Origin: an uncultured Siphonobacter sp.
GTDB taxonomy: Bacteria; Bacteroidota; Bacteroidia; Cytophagales; Spirosomataceae
Direction of reading: 5' to 3'
DNA length: 64,000 bases
Assembly: GCA_913774715.1 (NCBI GenBank)
Contig: CAJYHS010000155.1
Coordinates: 62,001-126,000, forward strand
Position numbers and translations under genes: made by a program. The notes under the pieces were generated by a model, which ran no database searches, was not told where the DNA came from, and saw only the letters and a list, made by a program, of their open reading frames with translations. Positions 43,510 to 53,378 of this stretch are shown piece by piece. The first letter of the stretch is position 1, and each line of letters opens with the position of its first letter.

Positions 43510-43540
43510 TTCGTTGGGCTATTTATAACTATTGATTCCC

Positions 43541-44235: not shown

Positions 44236-44778
44236 ATGACTACTCGGAAAGTATCAAAAGCCTTTAACTATAAGCTTGATTTTCAGAATACTGATTTTAG
44301 AAAACAGCCGGAATTATATCGGGTTGGTGTAGGAGAGCAAGGAGTACTTCTGGTAGAACCTTATAAATCTGAAATTCTGCCTCTATGGCGATTTCGAACG
44401 GAAGCTATTGCCCAAGAATCAGCTCAGGCTATCTATGCAATGTTTGAAGTATACCTTCGTGAAAAAGATTTTGTAGGGGCTGACATGGCTCGGAAGTATT
44501 TGCAGATGGGTTTTACCCGAGCCCGACGTTATGCCAATCATGCTAGTGGTAAAAAATATACTCAAAAGCAAGGGGACGGAGAAGGGGAAGAAAAGTCTTA
44601 TCCCTATTCGCAGGGAAGCATCCACAAGGGAAATGAGATCCAGCCCCAGGAAAAGGATGCCATGACCAGTGAGAAAGCAAAAGCAGCGGCAGTTTTCAAG
44701 ACCTATTGGGATATAGCTCGACAGCATGCTGACTATTTGAAGCAAAAAAAGGAGTTTACGGAAAAGTATGTAAGCTAA
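44236..44778 (+). CDS. DUF4385 family protein
   Basis: The 180-residue protein matches the family pattern I recall: KLDFQNTDFRKQPELYRVG, GEQGVLLVEPYKSEILPLWR, and YLREKDFVGADMARKYLQMG followed by FTRARRYANH. It then has a variable Lys/Glu-rich loop and a C-terminal helix (AAAVFKTYWDIARQHADYLK). The family is found in bacteria and in large phages and its function is unknown. It is a single gene with a terminator before it, and it converges on the RecE-like operon. A 12-bp inverted repeat spans its stop codon. Confidence 0.82.
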   Translation: MTTRKVSKAFNYKLDFQNTDFRKQPELYRVGVGEQGVLLVEPYKSEILPLWRFRTEAIAQESAQAIYAMFEVYLREKDFVGADMARKYLQMGFTRARRYANHASGKKYTQKQGDGEGEEKSYPYSQGSIHKGNEIQPQEKDAMTSEKAKAAAVFKTYWDIARQHADYLKQKKEFTEKYVS

Positions 44779-44798
44779 AAGCTACTATACTTTTCCGT
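44758..44798. terminator. Inverted repeat over the DUF4385 stop, between convergent genes
   Basis: ACGGAAAAGTAT (44758-44769) and ATACTTTTCCGT (44787-44798) are a perfect 12-bp inverted repeat with a 17-base loop. It spans the DUF4385 stop (44776-44778) and ends 5 bases before the convergent minus-strand gene. A shared stop-and-fold structure is likely. Confidence 0.5.
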
Positions 44799-44803
44799 AA
44801 TCG

Positions 44804-45016
44804 CTAAAACGCGGGTTGTGCGTTAGCTTGGCTCAGAAACTGACTCATATCCAGTTGAGGATAAAGCTGACTTAAAGCCTGCCAGTTTGATTGGGTTTCT
44901 ACCACAATCTGCTGGGTAGCAGTCGTAATGACCGAAGTATCTGCTTCGATTTCAACGCTTTCAATAGTCTCCGCCTTAAGCAACCAGATGCCACGGCTTC
45001 CCTTCAGTAAAATCAT
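44804..45016 (-). CDS. Hypothetical small protein, last gene of the RecE-like operon
   Basis: The 70-residue protein starts inside the 3' end of the nuclease gene, overlapping it by 41 bases in another frame. It begins MILLKGSRGIWLLKAETIES and has a Gln-rich, helix-prone second half. No family was recognised. The overlap and the position before a hairpin suggest a coupled small gene. It could also be chance. Confidence 0.5.
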   Translation of the reverse strand: MILLKGSRGIWLLKAETIESVEIEADTSVITTATQQIVVETQSNWQALSQLYPQLDMSQFLSQANAQPAF

Positions 45017-45605
45017 ATTGAACCTCCTTCCAGGTTTCTAATAAAAATTGATACTTCTTACGGCCTTTTTGAAGAAATTCCTGATCGGCTTTGAACCAGA
45101 AAATGTCATAAGGCTCTTTCTTCTGAATTCCAACAAAAATGAATTCTCTGCCTGTGCCACCCAGACTATCCAGGTAAAAAGCGGCTTGCCGATCATATTC
45201 GAGATTGTGGCATTGACTCACAAAATCCTGAAATGAATGCGTTGAAGTTGTTTTCAGGTCTAAAACGACTTGATTTCTAAAAACCAGATCGAGGCGAGCC
45301 TTGCAGGGCAAGATCGTGAGTGGATCTGTAAACAACTGAGCATGTTCTTTTCGGGAATATTGCCGATACCAATTGAACTCCTTGTGCGAGCGTAAATTTG
45401 CTTCCAGTCGCCGCAATCGTTCCTGATCTTCGGAATGAACAGGAATTTCCGGCCGGTGAGGTTCCAGCAAAGTAGCGTGCAAAGCCTGTCCAAACGAAGC
45501 AGTTCGAGGGGGTATATACGATTTTCGTCCGAACAGGTAATCCCGAAACCGACTTAAGTCACTATTGGAAATGCGGCGTAATCGCCGATAATCCTCTTCG
45601 CTCAT
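44976..45605 (-). CDS. PD-(D/E)XK exonuclease, RecE/Cas4-like
   Basis: The protein resembles the RecE-type and Cas4-like nuclease domain (PDDEXK_12 group) that resects DNA ends for phage recombination. From ATG 45605 (209 residues) it has ISNSDLSRFRDYLFG and TASFGQALHATLLEP with His43. The catalytic core has Asp106 in CKARLDLVFR and Asp116-x-Lys118 in VVLDLKTT, and YDRQAAFYLDSLGG follows. ATG 45605 overlaps the stop of the upstream 56-residue gene as ATGA, so it is preferred to ATG 45617. No RecT-like annealing protein is adjacent. It is the third gene of a four-gene operon. Confidence 0.8.
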   Translation of the reverse strand: MSEEDYRRLRRISNSDLSRFRDYLFGRKSYIPPRTASFGQALHATLLEPHRPEIPVHSEDQERLRRLEANLRSHKEFNWYRQYSRKEHAQLFTDPLTILPCKARLDLVFRNQVVLDLKTTSTHSFQDFVSQCHNLEYDRQAAFYLDSLGGTGREFIFVGIQKKEPYDIFWFKADQEFLQKGRKKYQFLLETWKEVQYDFTEGKPWHLVA

Positions 45606-45772
45606 CTTTGTTTCCATTGCTGATACAAATGCAGACCCTGAGTTGTTGCTTCGGACAACTCGCGGGTCGAGAGTTTATATTCCCGATAAATCTTCATCCC
45701 TTCCGGCGTCAGATGACCGTACTTAGCCACTTCCTGCCGAATGAATAACAAGGCGAATGATTTGGTAGACAT
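45602..45772 (-). CDS. Hypothetical 56-residue protein, second gene of RecE-like operon
   Basis: The frame starts at ATG 45772 and ends at 45602-45604, encoding a helical, charged protein (MSTKSFALLFIRQEVAKYGH near the N-terminus, LHLYQQWKQR at the end). It lies 15 bases after the 96-residue gene. Its stop codon overlaps the nuclease start as ATGA, which is typical of coupled genes and supports it as real. No family was recognised. Confidence 0.62.
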   Translation of the reverse strand: MSTKSFALLFIRQEVAKYGHLTPEGMKIYREYKLSTRELSEATTQGLHLYQQWKQR

Positions 45773-46201: not shown

Positions 46202-47239
46202 ATGGTCAACATGGAGAACAATATTGTCCGTCAAAAATCCGTGAAAGATGAAGATCGGGAATTTGAGAGAGCTCTGCGTCCGCTCTCGTTTGATGATTTT
46301 ACGGGACAGGATAAAGTGCTGGAAAACCTGAAAATATTTGTTCAGGCAGCTCGTCAACGGGACGAAACACTTGATCATGTACTGCTACACGGCCCTCCGG
46401 GTTTGGGCAAAACGACTCTATCGCATATTCTGGCTAATGAGATGGGAGCGGGGCTGAAAGCTACGACCGGTCCCGTGTTAGAAAAACCCAGCGACCTGAC
46501 CGGCGTATTGACCACTTTGCAAAAAGGGGATGTATTATTCATTGATGAGATTCACCGATTAAATCCGGTCGTTGAGGAATATTTGTATTCAGCCATGGAG
46601 GATTACCGGATTGATATCTTACTCGATAGCGGTCCTAACTCCCGGACGGTTCAGATTGGTCTAAATCCCTTTACATTAATTGGAGCGACGACGCGGGCTG
46701 GTTTGCTAACGTCTCCGTTGCGGGCTCGGTTTGGTATTAATTGCCGACTTGAATATTACGACGCGAATCTGCTTTCAACCATAATTACTCGATCTTCTTC
46801 CATGCTGGGTACGCCCATTCAGCCGGAAGGAGCCCTGGAACTGGCTCGACGTAGTCGCGGTACGCCCCGGATTGCTAACAATTTATTACGTCGAACCCGT
46901 GATTTTGCCCAGGTATTAGGAGATGGCACGATATCGCAACAGATTGCCGCCACTTCATTAAAGGCATTGGAGGTAGATGAAGGCGGTTTGGATGAAATGG
47001 ATAACCGTATTTTGTTAGCTATTATCGAAAAATTTAAAGGCGGTCCGGTTGGGCTTTCTACTATAGCTACGGCTATTGGCGATGAAGCGGAAACCATTGA
47101 AGAAGTATACGAGCCGTTTTTAATTCAGGAAGGATATTTAATGCGAACACCCCGAGGGAGAGAAGCTACTGAAAAAGCCTATCAACACTTAGGATTCGAT
47201 TATCCTGCTGCTAACAATCCATTTCATTTAGCTGCTTAA
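46202..47239 (+). CDS. ruvB: Holliday junction branch-migration helicase RuvB
   Basis: RuvB is the hexameric AAA+ motor that drives branch migration with RuvA. The 345-residue protein has [20 protein letters not shown], Walker [10 protein letters not shown], Walker [13 protein letters not shown] and sensor [18 protein letters not shown]. The C-terminal winged helix has [15 protein letters not shown]. Start ATG 46202 or 46211 are both possible. A TATTTTTG box (46184-46191) precedes it. It is divergent from the RecE-like operon. No ruvA or ruvC is nearby, as is usual in Bacteroidota. It is probably the host's core gene at the edge of an accessory segment. Confidence 0.96.
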
Positions 47240-47332: not shown

Positions 47333-47362
47333 TTTGGTGTTTTAAAAAAGGATATATATTTG
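47333..47362 (+). promoter_or_regulatory. Promoter of a candidate small RNA
   Basis: TTTG (47333-47336), 18 bases, then TATATTTG (47355-47362) is a near-ideal Bacteroidota promoter. No protein gene follows on this strand before the convergent gene at 47603. Confidence 0.65.
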
Positions 47363-47368
47363 TACATG

Positions 47369-47479
47369 CTCTTTAATTATGAACTCAGCTATAAGAGCTA
47401 ATTGAAACTGAGTTGGCGGCTTGGTTTTAATGAGATATAAGTAAGCATCGATATTTTTAATGTCGATGCTTTTTGTTTT
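47369..47479 (+). ncRNA. Candidate small RNA of about 110 bases
   Basis: A full promoter (47333-47362) is followed after about 80 bases by an intrinsic terminator (47443-47479), with no gene between. The body folds: AACTC/GAGTT (47382-47386 with 47410-47414) encloses AGCT/AGCT (47387-47390 with 47396-47399). Adding AG and CT to the outer stem gives an alternative pairing AACTCAG/CTGAGTT. A tiny frame MNSAIRAN (from ATG 47379) lies in the hairpin but has no downstream gene to control. The segment TTGGCGGCTTGG after the hairpin is unpaired and could be the target-pairing region. The family was not recognised. It is too short for 6S RNA. Confidence 0.6.
47443..47479 (+). terminator. Terminator of the candidate small RNA
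   Basis: A 9-bp perfect stem AAGCATCGA/TCGATGCTT (47443-47451 with 47463-47471) is followed by TTTTTGTTTT. Confidence 0.85.
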
Positions 47480-47602
47480 ATAGCCTCATAGGTAATAACA
47501 AAAATAGGTAGGTAAGTATTTGTTAGTAAGAGTATTATGGTACATACTACTCACTAATAAATGAACTAATCTGAGTGTATGATAAGTAAATAAGTTACTT
47601 TA

Positions 47603-47851
47603 CTACGCTCTAGTTTCTTCGCTGATTAAAATGGGTAAATCTAGTAAGCGAGCTACTTTTAGTTCAGCCTCCCTAAATTCACTTTCCGTACACGGATCAC
47701 ATGCTAATTTTCCTAAGGTATCAGGACGCATACGTGTACGTTCAACTAAAGGGTTAAATTCATAAAGACAAATAATTTTTACCTCCTCTCCCTGGCATTT
47801 AAAGTATTGCCCGCCTCCTTTTGATTTCATAAAAATGGGTTGTTGATTCAT
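47603..47851 (-). CDS. Hypothetical 82-residue protein
   Basis: No family was recognised. The protein is soluble and has three Cys residues, two in LACDPC. It contains KGGGQYFKCQGEEVKIICLY near the N-terminus and a helical C-terminal half (ESEFREAELKVARLLDLPIL). An ATG at codon 8 is an alternative start. It follows the 339-residue gene on the same strand with a gap of 87 bases, so the two may be linked. Confidence 0.6.
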   Translation of the reverse strand: MNQQPIFMKSKGGGQYFKCQGEEVKIICLYEFNPLVERTRMRPDTLGKLACDPCTESEFREAELKVARLLDLPILISEETRA

Positions 47852-47938: not shown

Positions 47939-48958
47939 TTAAGCAGCACGGTGACTGGAGCCTGAAAATAAATAAGTATCTAATTCAGGCTTAATTCGCT
48001 CACTAAAACGCTTTTGTACAAATCCATTTTTTAAGTAATCGGGTAAGCTAGCTAAAAACTCACTGTACGCAGGAACGCCCATAGCTTTTACTACATAAGC
48101 CTCGTGAATGGCATTGATGTGATCGACGATATCCAGTAATGAAATGTGAAATAGTTTGAAGTCCAGATCCACATTCACAAAACGTTCAATTTCCCGGTTA
48201 GTCGATGAAATTCGTAAACGGGAGAATAGATCCAGAAAAGTTGTTAAACCTACCCGGTCGGATAACTCCTGCCAATGTTGAGCACTGAATTTCTCCAGAA
48301 TCTTACCGGTACGTTCACTGCGTAAGGCTAAGGCTGGGTTACTCTGCAATTTCTGTCGTAACGAACGTAATTGGAGCGTACGAGTGGTTCGTAAAAACTG
48401 TCCAATCTGTGCCTGAGCTTCAAAAGGACTATCTGCTAGTAACAATCCTGGATTTCGCTGTCCTTTAGGCAGTCGGTGTACGTGATAATGATCGAGCGGT
48501 CCATCCGCGTAAAAGCTCAGGTAACGTGGATAGTAGGAGTTAGCTACCAATCGGCTGGTTCTCCGGCGGATATTCGCCTCATCAGTCGTTAATACTCCCT
48601 GCGTAGCTAAAAATGCCCGTAACCCATACCATACACAGTAATACGCCTGCGGAAACGTCCAGTGCAGGGCGTTAGACAGGAAAGAGTCATCACCCATTGT
48701 TGCTGTGTTGCGAAGGGCATATTCAGTATTCCAGGCATTTAATAACATCCGCTTCGTCATGTCGAGCGTTGTATCATTCATGCGTGGGGAAAAATTCCGG
48801 AAGCGTTCCAAGTCCGCTAGTTTTCCAGCCGCTTCTGTCTCCCGAATATGGTAATGAATTCCAAAAAAATGGTTGAGAAAAACGCGGGCTGCAATGGATT
48901 GCCGCCACTGTTCGTCGTCCTCCTGATGTATCGCTAATGATTGCAGATTTTCTTGCAT
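47939..48958 (-). CDS. Unknown 339-residue protein with a HEPN-like helix
   Basis: No family was recognised with confidence. The protein is soluble and almost wholly helical. Residues 98-122 (LHWTFPQAYYCVWYGLRAFL and on) resemble the AYYAxyhAxRAxL helix of HEPN domains. No HEPN R-x4-6-H catalytic motif is obvious, although Arg- and His-rich YHVHRLPKGQRNPG lies at about residues 163-176. A core basic segment (about residues 200-235) precedes helices around EIERFVNVDLDFKLFHISLL. It is upstream of the 82-residue gene. It could belong to a defence-type unit, but this is speculation. Confidence 0.6.
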   Translation of the reverse strand: MQENLQSLAIHQEDDEQWRQSIAARVFLNHFFGIHYHIRETEAAGKLADLERFRNFSPRMNDTTLDMTKRMLLNAWNTEYALRNTATMGDDSFLSNALHWTFPQAYYCVWYGLRAFLATQGVLTTDEANIRRRTSRLVANSYYPRYLSFYADGPLDHYHVHRLPKGQRNPGLLLADSPFEAQAQIGQFLRTTRTLQLRSLRQKLQSNPALALRSERTGKILEKFSAQHWQELSDRVGLTTFLDLFSRLRISSTNREIERFVNVDLDFKLFHISLLDIVDHINAIHEAYVVKAMGVPAYSEFLASLPDYLKNGFVQKRFSERIKPELDTYLFSGSSHRAA

Positions 48959-50605: not shown

Positions 50606-52903
50606 ATGAAAAAACTACTGATTTTAATTCCACTACTAGCTACACTGGCGTTTCAGCTGAAAGAGAGTTCGACGCAGGTATTTCTGATCGGAGATTCGAC
50701 CATGGCGAATAAACCCAACCCAGCCGACCCTGAACGCGGTTGGGGGCAGATATTACCTGAGTTTCTCGACGAAAAGGTAATCGTTCAGAATCACGCGGTT
50801 AATGGACGGAGTACAAAGAGTTTTATCAATGAAGGCCGTTGGAAAAAAGTCCTGGAAGGTCTGCATAAAGGTGACTGGGTATTGATTCAGTTTGGTCATA
50901 ACGACGAAAAAAGTCAGGATACCTCCCGTTACGCCGCTCCGCAAACGACGTACCGCGAAAACCTGACCCGTTTCATCAAAGAAGCTCGGGCCAAAGGAGC
51001 AAATCCGGTACTGATTACGCCGGTCATGCGTCGGAAGTTTACTGATAAAGGCCAGTTTGAAGATACGCACGGCGATTATCCGGCGGCGGTGAAAGCCGTA
51101 GCTGGGGAACAGAAAGTGCCCCTGATTGATCTTCACGCGAAGAGTCGTCAGACGATTGAGAAAATGGGCGTAGAAGATTCGAAAAAGCTGTTTTTATGGT
51201 TTACGAAAGGGTATTATCCTACCCGCAAGGACGGTATCAAAGACGACACACACTTTTCGGAATACGGTGCCCGTACCATGGCCATTCTGATTGCAGGAGG
51301 CATTAAAGAAGAAAAACTGGATTTAGCTAAGTATCTGAAAAAGAGCCCCTTTGAAGAAAAGTTAGCGTATGAATTACCGATTATTTACCAGCCCGTTTTC
51401 CGGAAAGATACGTTCAATATCATTAAGTACGGAGCTAAAGCTGACGGGCAAACACTGAATTCCAAGGCTATTAACCAGGCCATTACAGCCTGTAGCGAAG
51501 CCGGCGGTGGTACAGTCATAATCCCGGCAGGACTCTGGCTGACCGGTCCAGTGATCTTTCAGAATAATGTAAATCTGCACCTGAATCGTGGAGCTGTGTT
51601 GCAATTCAGTGAAAACAAGGATCACTATCCACTTATCAAAACCACCTGGGAGGGGCTAGATGCTATTCGCTGTCAGGCTCCACTGTATGCAAAGGATGTA
51701 CATGACATTGCTATTACGGGGGAAGGATATATTGACGGAGCAGGGGATGTTTGGCGGGCGGTTAAGAAAAGTAAGCAAACGGCTACGAACTGGGACAAAC
51801 TAGTAGCTTCGGGTGGAGTAGTGGATGGCGACATCTGGTACCCTTCCGAACAGTTTTTACAGGGGGCGAAATCGAAGGTAGCTGTTAGTATTGCGAATGG
51901 CTACGACATGAAAAAATCGGCTGAAATTCGGGATTTTCTTCGTCCCAATATGCTGAGTTTGACCAATTGCCGGAATATTTTGCTGGAAGGCGTGACCATT
52001 CAGAATTCTCCTGCCTGGTGTTTGCATCCACTTCTTTGTCAGGACATTAGCCTGGTTAACCTTACCGTTCGTAACCCCTGGTATGCTCAGAATGGGGATG
52101 GTATTGACCTGGAATCCTGCAAAAATGCCCTGATTGATGGCTGTACGTTTGATGTAGGGGATGATGGTATTTGCATCAAATCTGGTCGTGATGCGGAAGG
52201 TCGTAAACGGGGTGTACCCACGGAAAATGTGATTACCAAAAATAGTACGGTTTTCCATGCACACGGCGGTTTTGTAGTGGGCAGTGAAATGTCGGGTGGT
52301 GCCCGGAATCTGTACGTGTATAATTGTAACTTCTTAGGAACGGACGTAGGACTACGTTTCAAAACGGCTCGTGGTCGCGGAGGCCTGGTGGAAGATGTGT
52401 ACGCAACGGATATCCAGATGACTAATATTCCCGGTGAAGCTATCGTTTTTGATATGTACTACATGGCAAAAGATCCGGTTCCTCTGAAAGGAGAGAAAAC
52501 AGAATCGCTGGCCATTAAAGCAGAACCTCTGAATGAAGGAACCCCTCAATTCCGCAAATTCTACGTTCGTAATGTGGTTTGCAAGGGTGCAGAAACGGGC
52601 ATTTTAGTGCGAGGATTACCTGAAATGAATATTCAGGATATCCACATTGAAAACTCCATTATTGAAAGTAATAAAGGGTTGGTTTGCATCGAAGGGCAAC
52701 GCATTACGCTGAAAAATGTACAGTTAATAACGAAGCAAACGCCGGTTTTGCAAGTGCAGGATAGTCAGAATATTACCTTCGATAAAATTGGTTATAAACC
52801 TTCCGCTGATCTGTTATTAAAGGTTTCCGGTGAGCGTTCAAAAGCCGTTGAATTACTGCATACGGATACGTCAAAAGCGAAAAAAGTAAGAGAAGGGAAG
52901 TAA
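50606..52903 (+). CDS. Pectin enzyme: SGNH acetylesterase fused to GH28 polygalacturonase
   Basis: This exported protein (signal peptide residues 1-17, 765 residues) has two enzyme domains. Residues 25-255 form an SGNH rhamnogalacturonan-acetylesterase-like domain with FLIGDSTMANK (Ser), HAVNGRSTKSF, FGHNDEKS and DDTHFSEYG (Asp-His). Residues from about 260 form a GH28 beta-helix with FNIIKYGAKADG. Catalytic sites are NGDGIDLESC (about 496), GDDGICIKSG (about 518), HGGFVVGSE (about 553) and RFKTARGRGG (about 584). It should remove acetyl groups and cut galacturonan or rhamnogalacturonan chains. KdgF and GH43 genes follow, forming a pectin-use locus. Confidence 0.9.
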   Translation: MKKLLILIPLLATLAFQLKESSTQVFLIGDSTMANKPNPADPERGWGQILPEFLDEKVIVQNHAVNGRSTKSFINEGRWKKVLEGLHKGDWVLIQFGHNDEKSQDTSRYAAPQTTYRENLTRFIKEARAKGANPVLITPVMRRKFTDKGQFEDTHGDYPAAVKAVAGEQKVPLIDLHAKSRQTIEKMGVEDSKKLFLWFTKGYYPTRKDGIKDDTHFSEYGARTMAILIAGGIKEEKLDLAKYLKKSPFEEKLAYELPIIYQPVFRKDTFNIIKYGAKADGQTLNSKAINQAITACSEAGGGTVIIPAGLWLTGPVIFQNNVNLHLNRGAVLQFSENKDHYPLIKTTWEGLDAIRCQAPLYAKDVHDIAITGEGYIDGAGDVWRAVKKSKQTATNWDKLVASGGVVDGDIWYPSEQFLQGAKSKVAVSIANGYDMKKSAEIRDFLRPNMLSLTNCRNILLEGVTIQNSPAWCLHPLLCQDISLVNLTVRNPWYAQNGDGIDLESCKNALIDGCTFDVGDDGICIKSGRDAEGRKRGVPTENVITKNSTVFHAHGGFVVGSEMSGGARNLYVYNCNFLGTDVGLRFKTARGRGGLVEDVYATDIQMTNIPGEAIVFDMYYMAKDPVPLKGEKTESLAIKAEPLNEGTPQFRKFYVRNVVCKGAETGILVRGLPEMNIQDIHIENSIIESNKGLVCIEGQRITLKNVQLITKQTPVLQVQDSQNITFDKIGYKPSADLLLKVSGERSKAVELLHTDTSKAKKVREGK

Positions 52904-53030: not shown

Positions 53031-53378
53031 ATGTCACTAAATCCGAAAGAATTATTATTCGTAAAAGCTAACGAAATTCCCTGGGAAACCGTGGGAGATG
53101 GCCTCAGACGCAAGGTATTCACTTACGATGCCAACCTGATGATGACCATGGTCGCGTTTGAAATGGGAGCGATTGGAGCCATGCATCAACACCCGCACAC
53201 TCAGGTAAGTTATGTAGAAAGCGGGGTATTTGAGATTACCATTGGCGAAGAAGTGAAGGTGCTGCATAAAGGCGATGCGTATTATATTCCACCTTCCATT
53301 TTACATGGAGCCGTATGCCGGGAACCGGGAGTATTGGTAGATGTATTTACCCCCATGAGGGAAGATTTTATTAAATGA
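53031..53378 (+). CDS. kdgF: KdgF-like cupin for unsaturated uronates
   Basis: KdgF converts the 4,5-unsaturated uronates made by pectin and alginate breakdown to a linear keto sugar in the cytoplasm. The 115-residue cupin has MHQHPHTQVSYVESGVFEIT with the metal-binding His and Gln residues, GDAYYIPPSILHGAVC with a further His, and no signal peptide. The length agrees with enteric KdgF (about 110 residues). It lies between the GH28 fusion and the GH43 gene on the same strand. That context supports the pectin role. Other small cupins share this pattern, so the function is probable. Confidence 0.78.
   Translation: MSLNPKELLFVKANEIPWETVGDGLRRKVFTYDANLMMTMVAFEMGAIGAMHQHPHTQVSYVESGVFEITIGEEVKVLHKGDAYYIPPSILHGAVCREPGVLVDVFTPMREDFIK

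Follow-up and report, generated by a model that had tools for sequence, protein, structure and literature searches.

A candidate small RNA gene restricted to the genus Siphonobacter

A short intergenic element downstream of ruvB in an uncultured Siphonobacter is very probably, as far as can be judged from sequence comparison, a small regulatory RNA of the ordinary kind. The element lies in a 64,000-nucleotide stretch of contig CAJYHS010000155.1, which is called the window here and to which all coordinates refer. This assignment is made because the element is non-coding and its hairpin shape recurs in six genomes, together with a loop that is identical throughout; these genomes are the genome of the window and its nearest relatives (G001 to G005), all of which carry the genus label Siphonobacter. 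G005 is taken to be Siphonobacter aquaeclarae DSM 21668. The element would be a new, genus-restricted small RNA (sRNA) of a well-known kind. The best explanation, to which we give a probability of about 0.6, is a trans-acting sRNA confined to this genus that offers its loop to a target RNA without the help of Hfq or an RRM_1 protein. An earlier reading of the sequence alone (the sequence-only reading) had proposed an unannotated small RNA gene with a promoter, a terminator and no ORF, which switches between alternative hairpins. The gene is supported by conservation, by covariation and by the copy in S. aquaeclarae, while the switch is not, and the reading as a whole is thus partly supported.

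The putative transcript of about 113 nt extends from 47367 to 47479 on the plus strand, its start being placed from the -7 box and its end from the T run. It would begin with hairpin P1 (47368-47398; GCTCTT/AAGAGC), which is followed by hairpin P2 (47401-47431). The top of P2 carries the ten bases TTGGCGGCTT (47413-47422), the presumed seed, and an intrinsic terminator (47443-47479) with a 13-bp stem (47443-47471) and the tail TTTTTGTTTT completes the unit. The terminator and its tail had been recognized correctly in the first reading, which gave the stem a length of 9 bp. The two neighboring genes lie outside the unit. These are ruvB (46202-47239, plus strand), which is above the cut-off in both Pfam and NCBIfam, and a convergent 82-aa ORF (47603-47851, minus strand), which has no Pfam or NCBIfam match and adjoins the element in five of the six genomes. 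The terminator does not appear to serve this ORF as well; the idea of a bidirectional terminator was rejected, since on the minus strand the stem is not followed by a run of T.

No ORF with a length of at least 40 aa reaches into the unit in the window, which bears out the claim that no gene lies between promoter and terminator. Small frames of 5-30 codons are present in the unit, and they show no conservation among the six genomes. A leader peptide was rejected for the same reason; the candidate has 11 codons from 47366 in the window, and the relatives have other frames or lengths. The sequence-only reading had further placed the unit between ruvB and an accessory segment. The neighbor ruvB is correct, and the term accessory is doubtful for the ORF at 47939-48958 because relatives of it occur in 57 of the 121 family genomes searched. 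This ORF encodes a 339-aa protein with no Pfam or NCBIfam match, and no relative of it was found in S. aquaeclarae. On the other side of the locus (44236-45617) a DUF4385 protein and a DUF3799 PD-(D/E)XK-like protein are encoded beside ruvB on opposite strands.

The presumed promoter has its boxes where they had first been placed. A -33-like TTTG (47333-47336, plus strand) stands 18 bases 5' of the -7 box TATATTTG (47355-47362, plus strand). The latter fits the Bacteroidota consensus TAnnTTTG, which excerpts of PMC9723704 assign to positions -12 to -5. The pattern alone occurs at chance level, with two instances in the window against 1.48 expected. In four of the six genomes a TAnnTTTG box precedes P1 at the corresponding place; G001 and G005 have the variants TAATTTCG and TAATTTTA respectively, which the search script used for the scan admitted. 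A TTTG at a distance of 18 bases from the -7 box is found in the window copy and is absent in the other five genomes. Because of these variants and the restriction of the -33 box to one copy, the claim of a promoter is weaker than the claim of a conserved structure.

A search with the loop pattern recovered an element of the same architecture in all six genomes. BLASTN against 99 genomes gave six matches, five of them within the genus including the genome of the window itself, and it missed G001; in G095 the match covers query bases 1-44, upstream of the -7 box. A model (R1), which was built from the six element sequences, scores 90-99 bits within the genus. The ten bases TTGGCGGCTT at the top of P2 have an identity of 1.0, being the same in every genome. 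Pairwise comparison of the five syntenic genomes gives a mean identity of 0.77 for P2 plus terminator and of 0.53 for promoter plus P1, with 0.46 in the upstream and 0.36 in the downstream flank. It is this conservation (0.77 versus 0.46 and 0.36) that raises the unit above chance, since the promoter pattern by itself does not. The peak is confined to the unit, which distinguishes the unit from a plain spacer in close relatives.

Five of the copies have ruvB on their 5' side, in the same orientation, and the convergent 82-aa ORF on their 3' side. Compared with the three remaining syntenic genomes, G001 (locus L010) and G004 (locus L004) have about 240-260 additional bases between ruvB and the element. 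The copy in S. aquaeclarae is flanked by relatives of two other genes of the window, one at 43532, which is PIN-like and below the Pfam cut-off, and one at 50606 (50606-52903), which is polygalacturonase-like and below the NCBIfam cut-off. The 7.4 kb surrounding this copy revealed no ruvB and no 82-aa ORF. Comparison of the gene orders thus indicates that in one species the element exists apart from its usual neighbors.

The strand from 47365 to 47485 folds with -35.6 kcal/mol, compared with -22.0 kcal/mol (sd 2.9) for shuffled sequences (z = -4.7), and none of 200 shuffles was as good. The arms of P2 pair a TTGAAGC-like with a GCTTCAA-like sequence. Four of its eight outer pairs have changed on both sides among the six genomes, with 97.9% of the cells paired; in the terminator the same is true for three of 13 pairs, with 100% of the cells paired. 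Taken together, 7 of 21 pairs show two-sided changes and 99.2% of the cells are paired. When the partner strand was slid by 1-3 columns this number fell to 0 or 1, and shuffling gave a mean of 2.7, with 1 of 500 shuffles as high as seven. Compensatory changes, which the sequence-only reading had proposed to look for, are present in P2 and in the terminator. The covariation evidence is good, not overwhelming, as it comes from six sequences in few groups.

The inner helix of P2, with 3 bp, is possible in all six genomes with a one-base shift in G001 and G004. A P1 stem of 6-15 bp can also be formed in all six; its letters differ in G001 and G004, and CTCTTT is common to G005 and the window copy. 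In folds of single sequences that include bases 5' of the presumed start, G005 is without P1 and G004 without P2. The comparison of the copies, taken as a whole, shows an element with a 5' hairpin, a P2 with an invariant GC-rich top and a terminator, with compensatory changes in the latter two.

These data bear on the possibility that the unit is a plain spacer, in which promoter-like sequence lies next to an ordinary terminator and the terminator alone gives the appearance of conservation. The chance level of the promoter pattern would agree with such a spacer, as would the fact that much of the fold energy comes from the terminator. It is nevertheless very improbable, considering that P2 covaries, that the ten top bases are the same in six genomes despite a diverged surrounding spacer, and that S. 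aquaeclarae keeps the element in a different gene context.

The proposed switch relied on mutually exclusive pairings of the body. The segments AACTCAG and CTGAGTT are indeed complementary, but a fold with this helix forced has -25.4 instead of -35.0 kcal/mol, i.e. it is 9.6 kcal/mol worse, and the pairing probability of the helix is about 3e-6. Comparison of the copies by eye shows that the 7-bp match has not been retained in the five relatives. With this gap in energy, this low probability and the loss of the complement in relatives, a switch between alternative hairpins was rejected. The linker TTGGCGGCTTGG, which was thought to be open for base pairing, turns out to be the top and the 3' arm of hairpin 2. 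The segment TTGGCGGCTT was rightly singled out, and its place is the top of a hairpin and not a linker.

A second alternative is an element that acts in cis, either as a leader or attenuator or as the processed 3' end of the mRNA of the upstream gene. The S. aquaeclarae copy is followed, after about 90 bases without a TAnnTTTG, by the polygalacturonase-like gene in the same direction, and the copies of the five other genomes have ruvB 5' of them in the same orientation; both arrangements would suit a role in cis. In those five genomes, on the other hand, the next gene downstream is convergent, and in the window the polygalacturonase-like gene follows only after about 3.1 kb and two more genes of opposite orientation. 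In addition, the unit has neither a conserved leader peptide nor a supported alternative fold, and the upstream gene in S. aquaeclarae is not the one found in the rest. The gene order of S. aquaeclarae would allow a cis role, that of the other five genomes would not, and as a general explanation we consider such a role improbable. The polygalacturonase-like gene of the window (50606-52903) is followed by a small cupin-like ORF (53031-53378), which from its translation presumably resembles the pectin protein KdgF.

Next we consider the distribution of the element beyond the genus. Among 222 genomes of the family, 45 have an R1 match at E <= 0.01; the 39 of these that do not belong to the genus reach 48 bits at most. 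Of the 24 non-genus loci that were read (L023-L046), 22 are ordinary terminators without the P2 loop; for L045 and L046 the stretch read may not contain the R1 match. The genome of the window has two weak extra matches. In a sample of the order, two of 390 genomes match at E <= 1e-5, and these are the genome of the window and G001. A loose pattern of loop plus terminator is met by at least 115 stretches in genome_contigs and by 45 in viral_contigs, and among the 160 matches listed an 8-bp stem joined to a 13-bp terminator occurs in S. aquaeclarae only. Four more stretches obtained with weaker cut-offs are unrelated in sequence and were taken as chance. The element was recognized in no other genome of the family or the order among those searched.

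The comparison with known RNAs did not place the element in a described family. In the window no Rfam model scores above its threshold, and the sub-threshold matches differ between the copies with the exception of GibS (RF04182). The latter reaches 21.4 bits in the window copy and 25.6 bits in G001, compared with a threshold of 115, and was rejected. The best sub-threshold match of the window copy is the trpB ncRNA motif (RF04312), with 31.1 bits against a threshold of 59, and it was rejected as well. The element resembles this motif in the outline of hairpin, linker and terminator. RF04312 is absent among the matches listed up to E 5 for the G005 and G001 copies, and no gene named around the element is trpB.

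The excerpts of PMC7366714 and PMC11697453 describe GibS and FopS from Bacteroides as sRNAs with a single-stranded 5' seed and RbpB as a partner. The Siphonobacter element is like them, as far as these excerpts go, in being intergenic and AT-rich, in its length (about 100-145 nt for this group), in its intrinsic terminator and in coming from the same phylum (PMC7366714, PMC11697453). It is unlike them in that its conserved bases top a hairpin. Membership in this group was rejected also because an RRM_1 partner of the RbpB type (PF00076) was detected in none of the six genomes; two of 14 control genomes were positive, one of them a Bacteroides. Similarly, Hfq (PF17209) was detected in none of the six genomes and in 5 of 14 control genomes, which argues against an Hfq-dependent sRNA. 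Closest in manner is Rfp18 of Flavobacterium psychrophilum, which the excerpts of PMC9723704 present as a structured sRNA, conserved across species, with a predicted pairing region in a stem-loop; the two are likened by description and not by sequence comparison. Rfp18 is from a different bacterial family, and its metalloprotease targets, as given in these excerpts, are not linked to this locus. Among the papers listed by a literature search on small RNAs of Siphonobacter, Cytophaga, Bacteroidota and Cytophagales, and with the loop letters, none dealt with the element, and none with sRNAs of Siphonobacter at all.

Base pairing with mRNA is the common role of such a layout among bacterial sRNAs. 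A mechanism of this kind would start with transcription from the -7 box, giving a separate small RNA of about 113 nt, the ends of which P1 and the terminator may protect. The sequence UUGGCGGCUU at the top of P2 would then start base pairing in trans with a target RNA containing AAGCCGCCAA or a part of it; this pairing would alter the translation or stability of the target, with neither Hfq nor an RRM_1 protein involved. In the folds of all six genomes the GGC of the P2 top is unpaired with a probability of 1.0, and the U and the G beside it can pair weakly.

The search for targets was unproductive. The sequence AAGCCGCCAA has 178 sites in the six genomes, six of which belong to the element, a number slightly above the 157 obtained with the reversed control. 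Reading of these sites covered two genomes, with 18 of the 20 others in the genome of the window and all 31 others in G002. Two of the 49 sites read are within 150 bases upstream of where an ORF of at least 80 aa may start. One of them precedes a gene that we take to be ispE; the five relatives lack this site or have it in altered form. The second, in G002, is also inside another frame. Five pairs of sites in these two genomes are orthologous by their flanks, and none was flagged near a start. A loop complement followed by ATG after 3-30 bases occurred below the control level (237 versus 273 and 160 versus 198).

Among the sites listed, 20 stretches with an ATG-linked complement were taken (13 from the genome of the window, four from G002, two from G003 and one from G005). 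Three of the sites (L309, L310 and L313), each from a single genome, precede a possible ORF start by 25-45 bases. Another (L300, near 521, contig C141 of the genome of the window) has a 10-base complement of the loop region 34 bases before a 50-aa ORF, presumably similar to CcoQ, and among the matches listed it occurs in this genome only. The sites that are common to several genomes (L305/L307/L311 and L294/L308) are antisense to ORFs. A duplex scan of 50 start regions in the window with a 15-base seed gave a best value of -20.3 kcal/mol, which is not striking for 50 tests when the 1% point of 150 random stretches is -18.0 kcal/mol. For exact seeds and among the sites listed, there is no clear enrichment of the complement, and none of the sites near a start was found to be conserved.

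It is because of this last result that a different role of the same RNA must be taken seriously, namely that a protein, and not an mRNA, is the partner of the invariant hairpin top, the RNA being a decoy or having a structural function. A loop that is invariant while its complement is neither clearly enriched nor found in a conserved target site would suit protein binding, and so would the folding, which leaves about 3-5 bases fully open. A decoy, on the other hand, should copy a motif that is found elsewhere; the loop plus 3' arm, with at most one mismatch, has two sites beyond the six elements in the six genomes, and both were read as lying within reading frames. Protein binding hence seems unlikely, albeit less so than a function in cis, and pairing in trans is the reading that we prefer.

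We tentatively suggest a wider possibility, namely that the element represents a genus-specific class of Cytophagales sRNAs that work without Hfq or an RbpB-type chaperone and in which the invariant GC-rich hairpin top UUGGCGGCUU is a pre-structured seed or a protein-binding loop. A seed or loop at the top of a hairpin would set such a class apart from the single-stranded seeds of GibS and FopS. The element is short and conserved and, owing to its intergenic position, simple to delete; as neither Hfq nor RRM_1 was detected in the genus, it could show how regulation by sRNAs proceeds there. The case also demonstrates that a promoter and a terminator flanking an empty spacer, spotted by eye, can lead to a conserved RNA gene.

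The terminator stem has a feature of its own. In the window (47443-47471) and in the copies of G001 to G005, seven of its 13 pairs are invariant, and its letters (AAGC.TYGATG) are kept beyond the needs of a terminator; a second functional site in this stem is possible.
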